In this document: positions 6,230 through 46,099 of the stretch, piece after piece
Layout of the letters: each line of letters opens with the position of its first letter
Position numbering within the stretch: the stretch's first letter is position 1
Origin: Planctomycetota bacterium
Lineage (GTDB): Bacteria; Planctomycetota; Planctomycetia; Planctomycetales; Planctomycetaceae
Reading direction: 5' to 3'
Length of the DNA: 46,153 nucleotides
NCBI GenBank assembly: GCA_003669615.1
Contig: QWOO01000060.1
Span: 1-46,153, forward strand
Program-made: the position numbers and the translations under genes
The notes under the pieces: model-generated
Database searches by the model: none
What the model saw: only the letters and a program-made list of their open reading frames with translations
Told to the model about the DNA's origin: nothing

Positions 6230-6385
6230 CCTCTGTCGTTGTTCGCTCCGCGAACAAAACGGGTGATACAATCGCACTCGACCAAAGCGGAAACTGTTCG
6301 AATAACAATCGCATTTCAGGTTCGTGATTTAGGCACATGGAGGCATCACACCAGAACCCGTTTTGTTCGCGGAGCGAACAACGAC
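6230..6385. mobile_element. REPIN/MITE-like element, family 1 copy A
   Basis: Perfect 29-bp terminal inverted repeats: 6235-6263 gtcgttgttcgctccgcgaacaaaacggg and 6357-6385. Each arm holds a TTGTTCGC-TCC-GCGAACAA hairpin. Interior homologous to copy B on the opposite strand. Confidence 0.85.
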
Positions 6386-6449: not shown

Positions 6450-9400
6450 CTAAGATTCACGTTGAGTCCGGGCAGCACGCCAGTTGGCCAGGCCCTGAAT
6501 AACATAGAAGAAGACCGGTGTCAGCAGGATGCCGAACATTGTGACGCCCAGCATGCCCGCGAAGACGGCCGTTCCCAGAGTTCGTCTCATCTCCGCACCC
6601 GCACCTTCACCCAGTACCAGCGGCACGACGCCGAAGATGAACGCAAATGATGTCATAATGATCGGACGCAGACGCAATCGGCATGCGTCAAGAGTCGCCT
6701 GGAAAACATCAACTCCCTCCTGATTCTTTGCCCGCGCGTATTCGACAATCAAGATCGCGTTCTTGCACGCCAGCCCCACCAGAACCACGAAACCGATCTG
6801 TGTGAAGATATTGATATCCATTCCGGCCATGATGACGCCCACCACGGAACACAGCAGACACATCGGCACCACAAGAATCACGGCCAGCGGCAAAGCCCAG
6901 CTTTCGTACTGAGCTGCCAACACCAGAAACACAAGAATCACGGCCAGCAGGAATGCATACATGGCCGTGTTACCCGCCAGTTGTTGTAAGAATGCGAGCT
7001 CCGTGTATTCAGCCCGCATAGATGGCGCGAGGTTTCTGTCGGCCACATCTTTCAATGCCTGAATGGCTTCCCCGGAACTGGCACCGATAGCCGCTTCCGC
7101 ATTCACAAAAGCAGATGGATACAAATTGTGTCGAATGATCATCAGTGGCCCCGTCACTGTTCTGATCTGAATGAAGCTGGACAGAGGCACGCTTCCCGCA
7201 GTACTCGACGTCACATACATCCTCTGCAGGTCCTGAGTCTGCATGCGATACTTTGCATCGGCCTGTACGTTTACCTGCCACGTACGCCCAAACCGATTGA
7301 AATCGTTAACATACAGCGAACCAAAATTCACCTGCAGAGAACTGAAAATGTCGCCCATGGAAAGGCCCATTTTTTTCGCCGCATCACGATCTATGTCCAG
7401 CTGCAGCCATGTCGTATTGGCTCGAAAGCTGGAAAACAAATCGCGCAGGCGAAGATCGTCGGCTCCTTCCGCCACTATACTTTGACTCACGGATTCCAGC
7501 ATTCCCAGGCCGTTGTCGCCACGATCCTGAACGACGATTTTGAAACCACCGGCGGTTCCCAGTCCTTCGATCGGCGGAGCACCCAGAATATTAATATCTG
7601 CATCTTCGACTTCTTCCAAAAACAGTCGCCGGAGATCTTCAGCAACATCGTCGGCCGTTCGATGCGTCAGCACACGATCCTGAAAATCATCCAGCATGAC
7701 ATACATCGATCCGAAATTTGCCGCATTCGCATTCAGCAGCAAAGACTGGCCCGCCAGAGCGACCGTATGGCGAACTCCATCCACATCGCCAGCCAATTTT
7801 TCCACCTGCGCCATGACCGCCTGAGTTCGTTCCAGCGAAGCCGAATCGGCCAGACGCACATTCAGAACCAGGTAGCCCTTATCCTGAGCCGGAATGAAAC
7901 CTGTGGGAGTAACCGTAAACAAGTGCCACGTCCCATAGATCATTCCTCCATACAACAGCAATACAACGACGCTGCCCTTCATCATCCATCCCACCGTGCG
8001 AACATAGCCGTTGGTCGCACGATTGAAACCACGATTGAACAGACCGAATGCAAATGACAAAAATCGATTCACCGTTCGACCGGCCAGCCAGACCACAATC
8101 ACGCACGCAATCGCGGCCAGCCAGATCCAGACGGCCGGATCAATCTCTCGCAGTGCGGGAACACGCTCGGCCTGCTCAGCCAGAAATGGGCCAAGGTATG
8201 CATAACCCAGCCACGCGCCGAGAATCGCAAGCCCCGGACGGGGCAGCGCTTCGGCATGCGCACCATGTTCACGAGGACGCAGAAGAAGAACAGCCAGCGC
8301 GGGACTGAGTGTCAGCGAATTGAACGCGGAGATAATTGTGGAGATCGCAATTGTGACAGCGAACTGCCTAAAGAACTGACCGACCACCCCACTGATAAAC
8401 GCACACGGCACAAACACGGCAGTCAGCACCAGACCCACAGCAATCACCGGCCCGGCGACCATTTCCATCGCATGAATCGCGGCTTCACGCGGGGCCATGC
8501 CCTGTTCAATATTGTGTTCGACCGCTTCTACCACAACGATCGCATCGTCGACCACGATCCCTACGGCTAGGACCAGCCCAAACAGAGTCAGTGCGTTCAG
8601 ACTAAAGCCAAACGCCAGCATCGCCGCAAAGGTTCCGACAATGGCCACCGGAACAGCGACCAGCGGAATGATGGCCGGTCGCCAGCCCTGCAAGAACACG
8701 AGCACTACGATGGCAACAAGGATGACCGCATCACGCAGCGAGATAAACACTTCCTTGACGGATTCGCGAATGAAAGGCGTGGTGTCATAGACAATCGCGT
8801 AGTCAACACCTTCGGGAAATCGCGTCTTCAGATCGTCCATCTTGGCTCGCACTTCCGCGGCCGTTTCCAGAGCGTTGGATCCGGGCAGCTGATAAATCGA
8901 CAGCGCGATGGACGGCTGCGTGTTGAGTGTGCAGACCTGATCATACGACATTGCACCCAGCTCAATTCGTGCCACGTCACGCAAACGGATCATGCGACCA
9001 TCGCTGTCCGTTCGCAGCACCATGTCGCCAAACTGCTGCTCACTGGTCAGTCGTCCCAGCGTGGTCATCGTGTATTGAAAGACCTGGCCCTGAGTCGTCG
9101 GCTGCTGCCCAATTTGCCCTGCGGCCACCTGAGTATTCTGTTGTTCGATCGAACGCAGCACGTCCTGAGTACTGATATTGCGGCTGGCCATCTGCTGCGG
9201 ATCAAGCCACACTCGCATGCTGTAGTCTCGCTGACCGAGAAACGAGATATCGCCCACGCCCTCCACACGCGACAGCTCATCCCGCATCTGGATAGTTGCG
9301 TAGTTGCTGAGATACAGGTTGTCACGCGAGCGATCCGGTGAAAACAGATTCACAATCATCAGCACGCCCGGTGCCTTTTTCTTCACCGTGACGCCGCGCC

Positions 9401-9773
9401 GCTGCACCAGATCGGGCAGTGTCGGCTGAGCCAGAGCAACTCGATTCTGAACCAGAACCTGAGCCAGGTTCAGATCCGTGCCTGAAGAAAAAGTGACCGT
9501 CAGCGTGTACGTTCCGTCGTTCGTGCACTGCGACGACATATAAAGCATGTCTTCCACACCGTTGACCTGCTGCTCGACAGGAGCAGCGACAGTGTCGGCC
9601 ACGACCTTTGCATTGGCGCCCGGATACATCGTCGACACTTCGACCGTCGGCGGCGCAATCTCCGGATATTGCGTGATGGGCAGCGTGAAAACTGCAATGC
9701 CGCCGGCCAGTGTGATCACCACCGACAGCACGGTTGCGAAGATCGGTCGATCGATGAAGAAGCGTGAGAACAT
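6450..9773 (-). CDS. RND efflux transporter permease (AcrB/HAE1-like), with insertion in central loop
   Basis: MFSRFFIDRPIFATVLSVVITLAGG start, APPTVEVSTMYPGA, GIVVDDAIVVVEAVE (proton-relay DD), QIGFVVLVGLACKNAILIVEYA. Confidence 0.95.
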   Translation of the reverse strand: MFSRFFIDRPIFATVLSVVITLAGGIAVFTLPITQYPEIAPPTVEVSTMYPGANAKVVADTVAAPVEQQVNGVEDMLYMSSQCTNDGTYTLTVTFSSGTDLNLAQVLVQNRVALAQPTLPDLVQRRGVTVKKKAPGVLMIVNLFSPDRSRDNLYLSNYATIQMRDELSRVEGVGDISFLGQRDYSMRVWLDPQQMASRNISTQDVLRSIEQQNTQVAAGQIGQQPTTQGQVFQYTMTTLGRLTSEQQFGDMVLRTDSDGRMIRLRDVARIELGAMSYDQVCTLNTQPSIALSIYQLPGSNALETAAEVRAKMDDLKTRFPEGVDYAIVYDTTPFIRESVKEVFISLRDAVILVAIVVLVFLQGWRPAIIPLVAVPVAIVGTFAAMLAFGFSLNALTLFGLVLAVGIVVDDAIVVVEAVEHNIEQGMAPREAAIHAMEMVAGPVIAVGLVLTAVFVPCAFISGVVGQFFRQFAVTIAISTIISAFNSLTLSPALAVLLLRPREHGAHAEALPRPGLAILGAWLGYAYLGPFLAEQAERVPALREIDPAVWIWLAAIACVIVVWLAGRTVNRFLSFAFGLFNRGFNRATNGYVRTVGWMMKGSVVVLLLYGGMIYGTWHLFTVTPTGFIPAQDKGYLVLNVRLADSASLERTQAVMAQVEKLAGDVDGVRHTVALAGQSLLLNANAANFGSMYVMLDDFQDRVLTHRTADDVAEDLRRLFLEEVEDADINILGAPPIEGLGTAGGFKIVVQDRGDNGLGMLESVSQSIVAEGADDLRLRDLFSSFRANTTWLQLDIDRDAAKKMGLSMGDIFSSLQVNFGSLYVNDFNRFGRTWQVNVQADAKYRMQTQDLQRMYVTSSTAGSVPLSSFIQIRTVTGPLMIIRHNLYPSAFVNAEAAIGASSGEAIQALKDVADRNLAPSMRAEYTELAFLQQLAGNTAMYAFLLAVILVFLVLAAQYESWALPLAVILVVPMCLLCSVVGVIMAGMDINIFTQIGFVVLVGLACKNAILIVEYARAKNQEGVDVFQATLDACRLRLRPIIMTSFAFIFGVVPLVLGEGAGAEMRRTLGTAVFAGMLGVTMFGILLTPVFFYVIQGLANWRAARTQRES

Positions 9774-9894
9774 AGGTGAAAGTGTCTGACTATTTTTGAG
9801 TATTTCTGATCGAAAAAGCCAAGTGATGGGACGCGGTCTGCTTCGACATGTGACGGAGGCCTATTCCTTTTTCACACTCCCAAATCGATTCGCA

Positions 9895-9967
9895 ATACAA
9901 GCTCGAAGCGCCAGCGAGTGGGTTCCACCCGATCCTGCGCCGGCTCGCTGGCGCTTCGAGCTTGTAT
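9895..9967. repeat. Perfect 24-bp inverted repeat with 25-nt spacer
   Basis: atacaagctcgaagcgccagcgag (9895-9918) / ctcgctggcgcttcgagcttgtat (9944-9967). Confidence 0.92.
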
Positions 9968-10039
9968 CAATTCAGAGCCTTTCCAGTACCGAAAAGTCAT
10001 TCCGCAAAAACACGAAACCGACATCATCGCCTGCCGGAC

Positions 10040-13000
10040 TCAATCATGATCCACACTTGCTGGCGGCCTCACTGCTGCCCGATCGCGAGACACCGTCGCA
10101 AAGGCCGCACGCGCCGGACGACGAAGGAATCCCAGACGCAGAATGTCCATCACAAAATGTCCCGCTCGAAACAGTCGGCTGTCATGCGAAAACAGGCTCC
10201 AGTGGGACAGTCGATCGACCACAAGAAAGAACACCGGAGTCAGGAAGATGCCGAACAGAGTTACGCCAAGCATCCCGCTGAACACGGCGGTCCCCAGCGC
10301 ACGTCGCATTTCAAACCCAGCCCCTTTCGCAATCACCAAAGGCACGACGCCCAAAATGAAAGCGAAGGATGTCATCAGAATAGGACGCAGTCGCAAACGA
10401 CAGGCTGCGAGAATCGACGCGTGAAGCTCTTCGCCCGCATCACGTCGGAGCTTTGCAAACTCCACGATAAGAATCGCATTCTTGCAGGCCAGCCCGATCA
10501 GCACGACGAAACCAATCTGCGTGAAAATATTGATATCCAGTTCCGCCACCGCGACGCCGGCAATGGAACACAGTACGCACATGGGGACCACAAGAATAAC
10601 GGCCAGTGGCAGCGACCAACTCTCGTACAAAGCCGCCAGCACCAGAAACACAAACACCACAGAGAACAAAAACAGCATCAGTCCGGTACTTCCGGAAGTC
10701 CGTTCCAGATAAGCCAGCTCCGTCCACTCGGCCGCCATTGAAGATGGCAATTCACGAAGGGCCACTTCTTCCAGAACCTGAATGCCTTCTCCGCTGCTGA
10801 CACCGGTGGCGATATTGGCTGTAATGGCGGCGGCCGGATACATGTTGTAGCGAGTGACCATCAGCGGTCCGCCGATCATGCGTACGTTGGCCACCGCACC
10901 GAGGGGAACCATCTTACCATCGCGGTTGCGAACTTTCAGCCGCCGAACGTCTTCCGGCCTGTCACGGTACTGTTCATCTGCCTGCACAACGACCTGCCAC
11001 GTTCGCCCGTACATGTTGAAGTCATTCACGTAACGCGAGCCCAGATAGCCCTGCAACGTCCCAAAGACTTCTCCCAGACTTATGCCCTGCGAAAGACATG
11101 CGTCGCGATCCACATCGAAATACAACTGCGGCGCGTTGACGTTAAAGACGCTCAACAGGCCTTTGAGCTGCGGCTGCTCCGTGCCTTTGCGAACAAGATT
11201 GTCCGTCTGTTCCTGCAAAGCCTTGAGACCAATATCCCCGCGATCTTCCACCATCAGCTTGATACCGCCGGCACGCCCCAGCCCGGATACGGCAGGTGGC
11301 GGCGAAATGGTGACGGTCGCTTCCGGAATATTTTTCGCGTACTTTTTCAGCAGGCTTTCCTGAATGGAGGCCGCCGTAGTCTCTGGTGACTGACGCTTCT
11401 CGAACTCTTCCAATATGACGAACATGGAACAGAAGTTCGACGCGCGAGCACCCAGCTGGAATGAGTTGCCGGCAATCGAGTTGATGCTGCGAACCCCGGG
11501 TGTATCCAGCGTCAGGCTTTCTACGCGAGTCAGTGTTTCCAGAGTCCTCTCCGCTGATGTCGCATCAGGCAACTGAACGCTGCAGACCAGATATCCTTTG
11601 TCCTGCGATGGGATAAATCCCCGAGGCAGAGAGTTGAAACCGAAATACGTCAAACCCAGCAATCCACCGTAAACCAGCAGAACTAACACTGGCACTCGCA
11701 GCAGTCGCGACGTGGCAAACGCATAGCCGTTGATCGACTTCTGCATTCCAAAGTTGAACAGGCGAAAAAACCAGCCAAACAGGAAGTCCAGCAGCCAGGT
11801 CAGCCAATCCTTCTTACCATGCTTCGGACGCAGCAACAAAGCCGCCAGCGCGGGACTGAGTGTCAGAGAATTGATGGTGGAGATGACCGTTGAGATCGCA
11901 ATCGTTAATGCAAACTGGCGAAAGAATTGTCCGACAATCCCGGAAACAAACGCGCACGGGATAAACACGGCCGACAGAACGAGTCCCACCGCAATCACGG
12001 GCCCCGTGACTTCTTCCATCGCTTTGATTGCGGCCTCACGCGGGGCGAAACCGCGTTCGATGTATTGCTCAACGGCTTCAACGACCACAATCGCATCATC
12101 CACCACGATCCCGATCGCAAGCACCAGTCCAAACAGCGTAAGATTATTCAGACTGAAGCCTGCCGCCACCATTGCGGCAAAAGTGCCCACGATGGCCACA
12201 GGAACTGCAATCAGGGGAATGATGGCCGGTCGCCAGCCCTGCAAAAACACCAGCACCACAAGCGCAACAAGGATCACCGCATCTCGCAGAGATTTGAAAA
12301 CTTCGTTGATCGATTCGCGAATGAACGGCGTGGTATCATAGCCGGCTTCGTAAATGACGCCTTCCGGAAAATCGACAGACAACTCAGCCATCTTGGCTTT
12401 AACAAGGTCGGCGGTTTCCAAAGCATTGGCGTCCGGAAGCTGAAAGATCGCCAGTCCCACGGTCGGCTTTTGATTGAACCGGTTATTGGTCTCAATGGTA
12501 CGAGAAGCGACTTCCACGCGACCGATATCGCGGATGCGTAAAATACGTCCTTCGGCCCCGGTTCTTACAATGATGTTGGCGAACGCCTCGGGCGTTTCCA
12601 GTCGACCTTTCACAGTCAAAGGGATTTGCCACATCTGGCCGTTCATGGAAGGTGGCTGCCCCAATTGCCCCAGCGCCACTTCGCGATTCTCGTCACGAAT
12701 GGCCGCCTGCACATCAGTGACCGATAAATTTCGAGCCGCCAGTTTGTCCGGATCCAGCCAGATTCGCATACTGTAGTCTCGCTGACCAAACACACGAACC
12801 TCGCTCACGCCTCGCAACCGACTGATTTCATCCAGCAGATGCAGTCGCGCGTAATTGCTCAGGTACAGTTGATCGTAGCGTCCATCCGGCGAGTTCAGAC
12901 TGACGGTCAGCAGAATATCGGGCGATCGTTTGCGAGTGGTCACGCCCGTTCGACGGACCACTTCGGGCAAAGAGGGAATCGCCAGACTCACGCGATTCTG

Positions 13001-13324
13001 AACAAGAACCTGAGCCAGATTCAGATCGACGCCCGGTTTAAACGTCACCGTCAGAGCATACGAACCGTCATTGGTGCTCGACGAATTCATGTACAGCATG
13101 TCTTCCACGCCGTTAACCTGCTGTTCAATCGGCGCTGCCACGGTTTCGGCTACGGTTTGAGCACTGGCGCCCGGATAGTTACAGCCCACTTCCACTGTTG
13201 GCGGAGCGATCGGAGGATACTGAGCCAGCGGCAGCTGATAGAGCGCAATTGCCCCCACCATCGTGATCACTATGGAAATCACGGATGCAAAAATGGGACG
13301 ATCGATAAAGAATCGTGAGAACAA
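10040..13324 (-). CDS. RND efflux transporter permease (AcrB/HAE1-like)
   Basis: MFSRFFIDRPIFASVISIVITMVGAIALYQLPLAQYPPIAPPTVEV; GIVVDDAIVVVEAVE; close paralogue of 6450..9773. Confidence 0.95.
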   Translation of the reverse strand: MFSRFFIDRPIFASVISIVITMVGAIALYQLPLAQYPPIAPPTVEVGCNYPGASAQTVAETVAAPIEQQVNGVEDMLYMNSSSTNDGSYALTVTFKPGVDLNLAQVLVQNRVSLAIPSLPEVVRRTGVTTRKRSPDILLTVSLNSPDGRYDQLYLSNYARLHLLDEISRLRGVSEVRVFGQRDYSMRIWLDPDKLAARNLSVTDVQAAIRDENREVALGQLGQPPSMNGQMWQIPLTVKGRLETPEAFANIIVRTGAEGRILRIRDIGRVEVASRTIETNNRFNQKPTVGLAIFQLPDANALETADLVKAKMAELSVDFPEGVIYEAGYDTTPFIRESINEVFKSLRDAVILVALVVLVFLQGWRPAIIPLIAVPVAIVGTFAAMVAAGFSLNNLTLFGLVLAIGIVVDDAIVVVEAVEQYIERGFAPREAAIKAMEEVTGPVIAVGLVLSAVFIPCAFVSGIVGQFFRQFALTIAISTVISTINSLTLSPALAALLLRPKHGKKDWLTWLLDFLFGWFFRLFNFGMQKSINGYAFATSRLLRVPVLVLLVYGGLLGLTYFGFNSLPRGFIPSQDKGYLVCSVQLPDATSAERTLETLTRVESLTLDTPGVRSINSIAGNSFQLGARASNFCSMFVILEEFEKRQSPETTAASIQESLLKKYAKNIPEATVTISPPPAVSGLGRAGGIKLMVEDRGDIGLKALQEQTDNLVRKGTEQPQLKGLLSVFNVNAPQLYFDVDRDACLSQGISLGEVFGTLQGYLGSRYVNDFNMYGRTWQVVVQADEQYRDRPEDVRRLKVRNRDGKMVPLGAVANVRMIGGPLMVTRYNMYPAAAITANIATGVSSGEGIQVLEEVALRELPSSMAAEWTELAYLERTSGSTGLMLFLFSVVFVFLVLAALYESWSLPLAVILVVPMCVLCSIAGVAVAELDINIFTQIGFVVLIGLACKNAILIVEFAKLRRDAGEELHASILAACRLRLRPILMTSFAFILGVVPLVIAKGAGFEMRRALGTAVFSGMLGVTLFGIFLTPVFFLVVDRLSHWSLFSHDSRLFRAGHFVMDILRLGFLRRPARAAFATVSRDRAAVRPPASVDHD

Positions 13325-16650: not shown

Positions 16651-16810
16651 CCTCTGTCGTTGTTCGCTCCGCGAACAAAACGGGTTGTGAAGAACCGGTC
16701 TCCATGTGCTTAACCACGAACTCACAACGCGACTCCCATCCGCACTCTTTATCCCTTCGGCAATCTGCGCTTCCATCATCCGTTTCGTTCGCGGAGCGAA
16801 CAACGACTTT
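16651..16810. mobile_element. REPIN/MITE-like element, family 1 copy B
   Basis: Left arm 16651-16685 identical over 35 bp to copy A (6230-6264); right arm 16780-16807 is the near-perfect inverse (ccgtttcgttcgcggagcgaacaacgac). Confidence 0.85.
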
Positions 16811-38757: not shown

Positions 38758-38825
38758 ATAGTCGCCTTTCGCTCCGCGAAAGTAGCGAACATACACGTTA
38801 CTTTCGCGGAGCGAAAGGCGACTAT
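38758..38825. mobile_element. Minimal family 1 element, copy C (27-bp perfect arms, 14-nt loop)
   Basis: atagtcgcctttcgctccgcgaaagta (38758-38784) / tactttcgcggagcgaaaggcgactat (38799-38825). Confidence 0.85.
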
Positions 38826-45207: not shown

Positions 45208-45941
45208 GAATTCTGGTCGTTGAAGATGAAGATGCGATCGCCAAAGGCCTGCGTTTCAATTTCGAACGGGAAGGTTATCAGGTCGATCTGGCCGGAGACG
45301 GCCCAACGGCCCTGGAGCTTTACGAGTCCGCTCAGCCGCCGGTCGATCTGGTTGTCCTTGACTTGATGCTGCCACTGATGAGTGGCTATGAGATCTGCAA
45401 AACCCTTCGTCGGCTGGACTGGGAGATTCCGATCCTGGCAATGACGGCCCGCACGTTGTCCGAAGACAAAATTCAGGCCTTCGACTGCGGCGTCAATCAG
45501 TACATGACCAAGCCGTTTTCGCTGCCGGAGCTGCTCAGCCGCGTTCGAAATTTGCTGGATCAGCGTCGCCGCAGTCTGGAGCGACGAACTGTCCGGCCGA
45601 CCGAAGACGTCGTGCGATTTGGCGACGTCACTGTGAACTTCGGCAGGTTTGAGATTCGTCGCAAAGATGAAGTTCAGACCATGACGACTCGCGAGCAGGA
45701 GCTGCTGCGATATTTCCTGGAACAGGACGGCGTGGTGCTGTCTCGAGCTCGCATACAATCGGATGTGTGGAAGGATTCGGCCGACATCTCCAGCCGTTCC
45801 ATCGACAACTTCGTGATGCGGCTGCGACGCATGATTGAGAACGATCCATCATCGCCTCGGCACCTGCTTTCCATCCGCGGCACCGGGTATCGCTTCGTCC
45901 GCGAACGCGCCGAAGAACCCGGTGCAACGGAGGAGTCATAG
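45204..45941 (+). CDS. OmpR/PhoB-family response regulator
   Basis: MRILVVEDEDAIAKGLRFN, VDLVVLDLMLPLMSG, MTKPF, C-terminal winged helix SIDNFVMRLRRMIENDPSSPRHLLSIRGTGYRF. Confidence 0.95.
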   Translation: MRILVVEDEDAIAKGLRFNFEREGYQVDLAGDGPTALELYESAQPPVDLVVLDLMLPLMSGYEICKTLRRLDWEIPILAMTARTLSEDKIQAFDCGVNQYMTKPFSLPELLSRVRNLLDQRRRSLERRTVRPTEDVVRFGDVTVNFGRFEIRRKDEVQTMTTREQELLRYFLEQDGVVLSRARIQSDVWKDSADISSRSIDNFVMRLRRMIENDPSSPRHLLSIRGTGYRFVRERAEEPGATEES

Positions 45942-46099
45942 TCGTTGTTTGCTCCGCAAACAAAACGGATTGTGGAGTGCCGCATCCACGAAGCAGAAAT
46001 CATCGAACTGTGTTTTTGTTGCTGCTTGTTTAAAGCCTTGTGAGCTTTGCGGAGTGCACTCTTGCATCCGTTTCTTTCGCGGAGCGAAAGACGACTATG
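45938..46099. mobile_element. REPIN/MITE-like element, family 1 copy D
   Basis: Left catagtcgttgtttgctccgcaaacaaaacggat (45938-45970), right atccgtttctttcgcggagcgaaagacgactatg (46066-46099); interior resembles copy B. Confidence 0.8.

Follow-up and report, generated by a model that had tools for sequence, protein, structure and literature searches.

Covariation within, and not between, the hairpin arms of a GTCG-footed REP-like dimer of a planctomycete

The window, by which is meant the whole stretch of 46,153 nucleotides analysed here, comes from a planctomycete draft MAG (3.77 Mb in 350 contigs, 62% complete) and contains copies of a hairpin element; copy D, the last of them, stands at the end of a response-regulator-like gene (Table 1). 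AACGG forms the inward continuation of both copy D arms. Each arm had been predicted to be a self-complementary hairpin, and both sequences lie where they were placed; a stem search finds the two stems to be perfect and 8 bp long, and the right stem CTTTCGC/GCGAAAG, originally given as 7 bp, is therefore a genuine hairpin described one pair too short, an eighth pair, T-A, being present. Folded singly as ssDNA, the left arm reaches -6.7 and the right arm -7.4 kcal/mol, and for each arm 1 of 200 shuffles folds at least as well. A tandem duplication lies elsewhere in the window, on the minus strand at 6450-13324: two large genes next to each other, encoding 1107 and 1094 aa, are 72-78% identical in DNA along several stretches spaced 3.55-3.72 kb apart.

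Table 1. Copy D, its parts and further dimers, in window coordinates
Feature	Position	Strand	Remarks
CATA ahead of left foot	45937..45940	+	its TA and the G of the foot make up the TAG stop codon with which the response-regulator-like gene upstream ends
Copy D, whole element	45941-46095		two inverted hairpin arms, each with foot GTCG, 8-bp stem and loop TCC
Left REP of copy D	45941..45963	+	foot GTCG 45941-45944; stem TTGTTTGC/GCAAACAA, loop TCC, 45945-45963
Left inner flank of copy D	45964..45980	+	AACGGATTGTGGAGTGC; AACGG near-invariant in family A, remainder variable
Spacer of copy D	45981..46055
Right inner flank of copy D	46056..46072	-	minus-strand sequence AACGGATGCAAGAGTGC
Right REP of copy D	46073..46095	-	foot GTCG 46095-46092; stem TCTTTCGC/GCGAAAGA, 8 bp, loop TCC, 46091-46073
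CATA ahead of right foot	46096..46099	-	tetranucleotide identical to that on the left side
Family-A REP dimer	6235..6385	.	between convergent genes
Family-A REP dimer	16656..16807	.	11 bp past a gene end
Family-B REP dimer	38761..38822	.	GTCG C CTTTCGC-TCC-GCGAAAG

Hairpins of this kind are numerous in the genome: BLAST with copy D as query gives 75 matches, and a pattern search gives 317 as compared with 160 for a control pattern. There are at least 100 GTCG arms, falling into two families, and 103 well-paired arms with an exact GTCG foot were collected. Family A has the consensus GTCG TTGTTYGC-TYC-GCRAACAA AACGG and forms dimers mostly of 146-158 bp; family B has the consensus GTCG C CTTTYGC-TYC-GCRAAAG and forms dimers mostly of 50-81 bp. 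The foot is GTCG in both families alike and the loop is TCC or TCT in both; the loop, which had been expected to be constant, is thus nearly so, with TCC in 44 and TCT in 5 of 49 family-A arms. Family-A spacers are of near-constant length (58-70 nt between 44-nt arms) and the arms are almost identical, whereas the spacer sequences are mostly unrelated, and most copies are therefore not recent transpositions. No movement, empty site or excision product was seen. The clearest sign of local duplication is a pair of back-to-back family-A dimers with copy-D-type right arms and similar spacers (G000:C304 4697-5012; L003 1229-1540).

Copy D combines a family-A left arm with a right arm that has the A frame and a B-like stem. 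Three further dimers of the genome have the same right-arm stem next to an inner flank like that of copy D, so that the right arm represents a single variant held in common, perhaps patched in from family B, rather than an independent event. The chances seem evenly balanced that it is a mosaic, in which recombination or conversion placed a family-B stem in a family-A arm: the B-like stem CTTTCGC/GCGAAAG is accompanied by the A foot spacing and the A inner flank AACGG in all four dimers, but only two stem pairs differ, so that two paired point changes could also account for it. A mosaic origin is compatible with the main explanation advanced below, and the general covariation is independent of the copy D right arm.

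Two RAYT-type transposase genes, C84 and C200, whose proteins are 68% identical, were found elsewhere in the same genome with the NCBIfam model REP_Tyr_transpos (NF047646; E 7e-14 and 5e-14). C84 is bracketed by family-A hairpins and C200 by near-identical family-B dimers; in the sister species G006 the gene C61 is likewise flanked by REPs. The scores lie under the curated cut-offs (52 vs 80 bits for NF047646, 16 vs 23 for Pfam Y1_Tnp), and on account of the former the proteins are called RAYT-like, of a divergent branch. They are about 227 aa long with a conserved N-terminal part, and HxH 146-148, WQ 185-186 and Y206 are invariant in an alignment of ten sequences. The closest solved structure, by sequence and by fold, is that of E. 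coli TnpAREP in complex with a REP hairpin (4ER8), which the predicted structure (mean pLDDT 76) matches at E 1e-5 with a low TM-score of 0.37/0.49. Three PF01797 matches (C341, C289 and C74) were rejected as partner transposases because none, unlike C84 and C200, is bracketed by GTCG dimers. The genome also holds a third REP-like family, of the GTAGCA-GGCACAC-TCC-GTGTGCC type (L088 792-850, G000:C289), and hairpins of this type flank other RAYTs in relatives (L289, L337, L374).

Homologous genes were followed in 80 loci from GTDB species genomes, mostly of planctomycetes with some Verrucomicrobia. Foot-hairpin-TCC repeats flank the gene on both sides in 53 of the 80; at 22 of the 80, some of them at contig ends, the scan found no hairpins of the kind. 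Stems in the flanks range from CTTTCGC to CATCACTC, GGCACAC and CCTGTCGC while TCC stays, and half of 74 flanking dimers have different stems in the two arms, as read by a scan that required pairing; such scans are biased and were used only for reading feet and stems. An unbiased scan of the flanks of the 80 genes finds 327 occurrences of GT[ACG]G-N8/9-TCC; a 6-bp stem is closed with every position paired in 192 of them, as compared with 0-1 such stems for other loop triplets or reversed sequence. The foot tracks the RAYT protein tree, with 7 changes vs 26.4 for shuffled labels. All GTCG rows fall in a single clade (support 99/95), which also includes four GTGG members and one GTAG member, and feet outside this clade are GTAG, GTGG or GTTG.

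The elements are extragenic, 33 of 40 dimers lying outside crude ORF calls even though such calls cover 89% of the flanks. Of those scored in this genome, 31/33 lie between tandem or convergent genes and 2/33 between divergent genes. A dimer is faced by 41 gene ends, many within 30 bp, and in 7 of the 41 the G of a TAG stop is the first base of the GTCG foot, as if the element supplied or sought the stop codon at gene ends. Among the stop-sharing genes are C84, C200 and the response-regulator-like gene that precedes copy D (45937-45944; L068 1113; L012 259); all three end in the same CATAG-TCG junction. This placement, together with the conservation of arms and not of spacers, might suggest that the hairpins owe their retention to a function for the cell at gene 3' ends (protecting the mRNA end, stopping transcription or binding a protein) and that the RAYT is incidental or long past. 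Such a host role is nevertheless unlikely: no U-run follows the hairpins, an Rfam search of them gave no match, and a host role predicts neither a foot that follows the transposase clade across genomes nor a TCC common to all.

Covariation of the stem was assessed in 388 candidate arms from seven genomes; 119 head-to-head dimers were found in these genomes. In order to avoid choosing paired stems, arms were anchored on the foot, the inner GC pairs and the loop only, and the collection is blind to stem pairs 1-6. The alignment has 255 distinct rows, in which pair 2 occurs as C-G, T-A, G-C and A-T, pair 3 as T-A and G-C, pair 4 as T-A and A-T and pair 6 as C-G and T-A. The covariation statistic comes from an R-scape-like script of our own and not from R-scape itself; its null preserves both tree and column rates, and the tree, built on 35 columns, is weak. 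Against this tree-aware null pairs 2 and 3 covary significantly over the seven genomes, their values being unmatched anywhere in the null, and pair 6 falls at the margin (E 0.15); no pair of columns outside the stem passes E<0.05. In this genome alone no pair reaches E<0.05 by the same null, the best being pair 6 (E 0.07), and the claim thus rests on the seven genomes. The original prediction that the stem varies at paired positions is borne out at this level, by a large arm set in which only stem pairs pass, whereas the three stem types on which it drew represent too few events for proof.

The two sides of a stem pair also change together on a single branch at more than the expected frequency (pair 2, 6 vs 0.8; pair 6, 4 vs 0.3). 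Overall the excess of such double changes is seen for pairs 2, 4, 5 and 6, and in this genome for all of pairs 2-6 (all p<=0.014). Pairs 2-6 are all Watson-Crick in 242 of 282 arms and one pair is broken in 24. This scarcity of half-changed stems could be taken to mean that the compensatory changes arise by mutation rather than selection, template switching at quasi-palindromes copying one side of the stem onto the other; that is an improbable explanation, since intermediates, T-G wobbles among them, do occur and since it leaves the constant foot and TCC loop and the RAYT association unexplained. In G006 (loci L182-L208) the 3' stem of 33 arms contains one C more (GC-C-GAACC or GAACA), which forms a bulge or a larger loop; a bulged and an unbulged arm are combined in 11 of its 17 dimers and two bulged arms in none.

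Comparison of arm with arm locates the conservation within the single hairpin. In 22 family-A dimers Watson-Crick pairing of pairs 2-6 within the arm is 98.6%, vs 84.5% (sd 1.6) with the halves shuffled, while stem identity between partner arms of the same 22 is 85.0% vs 83.5% (sd 1.4) for shuffled partners, no more than chance. Over the inner 18 nt, beyond the stem, the similarity of partner arms falls below that of random ones (55.6% vs 62.0%, p 0.0006). Among 109 dimers 158 stem pairs differ between the partner arms, and 54 of these are double changes that leave both arms paired. All 16 dimers of G025 have arms that differ at the two bases after the stem (expected 9.2, p 5e-5); in G006 the difference lies in the first two bases of the stem and affects 16 of 17 dimers. 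Arms in these families thus tend toward a non-matching pair. With stem matching within arms far above shuffled and partner arms at or below chance, the short hairpin of each arm is the conserved unit and not the pairing between arms; the covariation lies within arms with none between them, as originally proposed. It is accordingly very improbable that selection acts on a long hairpin or cruciform formed by pairing arm to arm across the entire dimer and that the local hairpins are by-products, as might be argued from the best fold of the entire copy D as one strand (the long hairpin, -33.9 kcal/mol, better than all 200 shuffles) and from compensatory changes across the two hairpin sides in P. 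fluorescens REPINs reported by Bertels and Rainey (PMC3116915), for in these dimers the partner arms resemble each other in the stem no more than random arms do, resemble each other less than random arms in the inner 18 nt, and are regularly different in G025 and G006. The long pairing is possible but carries no mark of selection and is not what evolution keeps.

Copy D is thus very likely a head-to-head REP dimer (REPIN-like) of a REP/RAYT system, in which the RAYT binds folded single-strand arms and the stem is kept paired while its letters drift. TnpAREP proteins are known to bind REPs as single-stranded hairpins, with foot and loop bases that matter; in group 3 systems cleavage suffers when the stem contains a mismatch, and the cut can be directed by the foot (PMC8266576). 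Applied to a GTCG foot, the IS608-like guide rule of PMC8266576 would predict a CA or CG dinucleotide. A nearly fixed foot and loop, stem letters that are free if paired, and arms that are independent are what such hairpin binding predicts. By analogy, the RAYT would bind each arm as a folded single strand and would read the foot and the TCC loop, requiring a paired stem of largely free sequence; a cut near the foot would then allow the element to be moved or copied. The need for a paired stem would keep it paired while its letters drift and would leave the arms free to differ. The original proposal of the short hairpin as the unit, as in REP sequences, is supported in that each hairpin family flanks a RAYT-type gene; mobility and the chemistry of recognition we infer. 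More tentatively, a RAYT clade, mainly of Pirellulaceae-like planctomycetes, may have replaced a GTAG guide foot by GTCG and altered its cleavage site to match, and may work on dimers whose ends must differ (left and right types), so that stems evolve to be complementary but mutually distinct.

The system shares with other REP/RAYT systems (REPtrons; TnpAREP of E. coli, Stenotrophomonas and Marinomonas) short tagged hairpins in head-to-head dimers with a paired stem and near-constant loop, as well as a transposase gene bracketed by its own repeats; it differs in its foot, GTCG rather than GTAG or GTGG, and in its RAYTs, which with their length of about 227 aa and conserved N-terminal part score below the NCBIfam and Pfam cut-offs. 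By broad definition the elements are REPs or REPINs, being short palindromes of many copies, extragenic in position and arranged as inverted doublets, and the proteins are RAYTs, with an HUH motif and catalytic tyrosine, a TnpAREP fold (at low TM-score) and a gene flanked by REPs. REPINs of Pseudomonas fluorescens SBW25 are likewise inverted REP doublets with a variable spacer; unlike these, where changes compensate across the hairpin sides (PMC3116915), the dimers here show none between arms and an excess of differing arms. REP dimers of the GTAG superfamily (Rhodopirellula baltica, Stenotrophomonas; PMC3733652, PMC2817692) also comprise subfamilies with alternative complementary stem residues and heterodimers, but at most a degenerate GTMG tag would accommodate the GTCG foot; membership was rejected because the foot is neither GTAG nor GTRG, and the element is filed only as a GTCG-footed relative. 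The CGTC REP superfamily was rejected as well, because the foot is GTCG and because that class has no associated transposase genes, whereas here such genes are bracketed by the repeats. With IS200/IS605 elements (IS608, ISDra2) the system shares the HUH/Y1 transposase fold and hairpins with a 5' guide tetranucleotide; unlike them, the dimers have no internal transposase gene and their arms are inverted rather than subterminal hairpins on one strand.

That REP stems change in a complementary manner was noted for Stenotrophomonas in 2010 (PMC2817692) and for most GTAG families in 2013 (PMC3733652), and selection for complementary mutations has already been proposed (PMC3733652, PMC2817692). Di Nocera and colleagues also described a heterodimer preference in many REP families and suggested protection from hairpin-cutting enzymes (PMC3733652), and attention had earlier been drawn to the many tyrosine transposases of R. 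baltica and the repeats that flank them (PMC3733652, PMC2817692); a description of a GTCG-footed RAYT clade was not found in the literature searched. The covariation is therefore a well-supported instance of a known REP rule, with a variant GTCG tag. It turns the old qualitative remark that complementary mutations keep REP palindromes into a counted test of the short against the long hairpin. In addition, the feet GTAG, GTCG, GTGG and GTTG form a natural series on one transposase tree, and the idea of foot-guided cleavage thus becomes directly testable by foot swaps between sister RAYTs.
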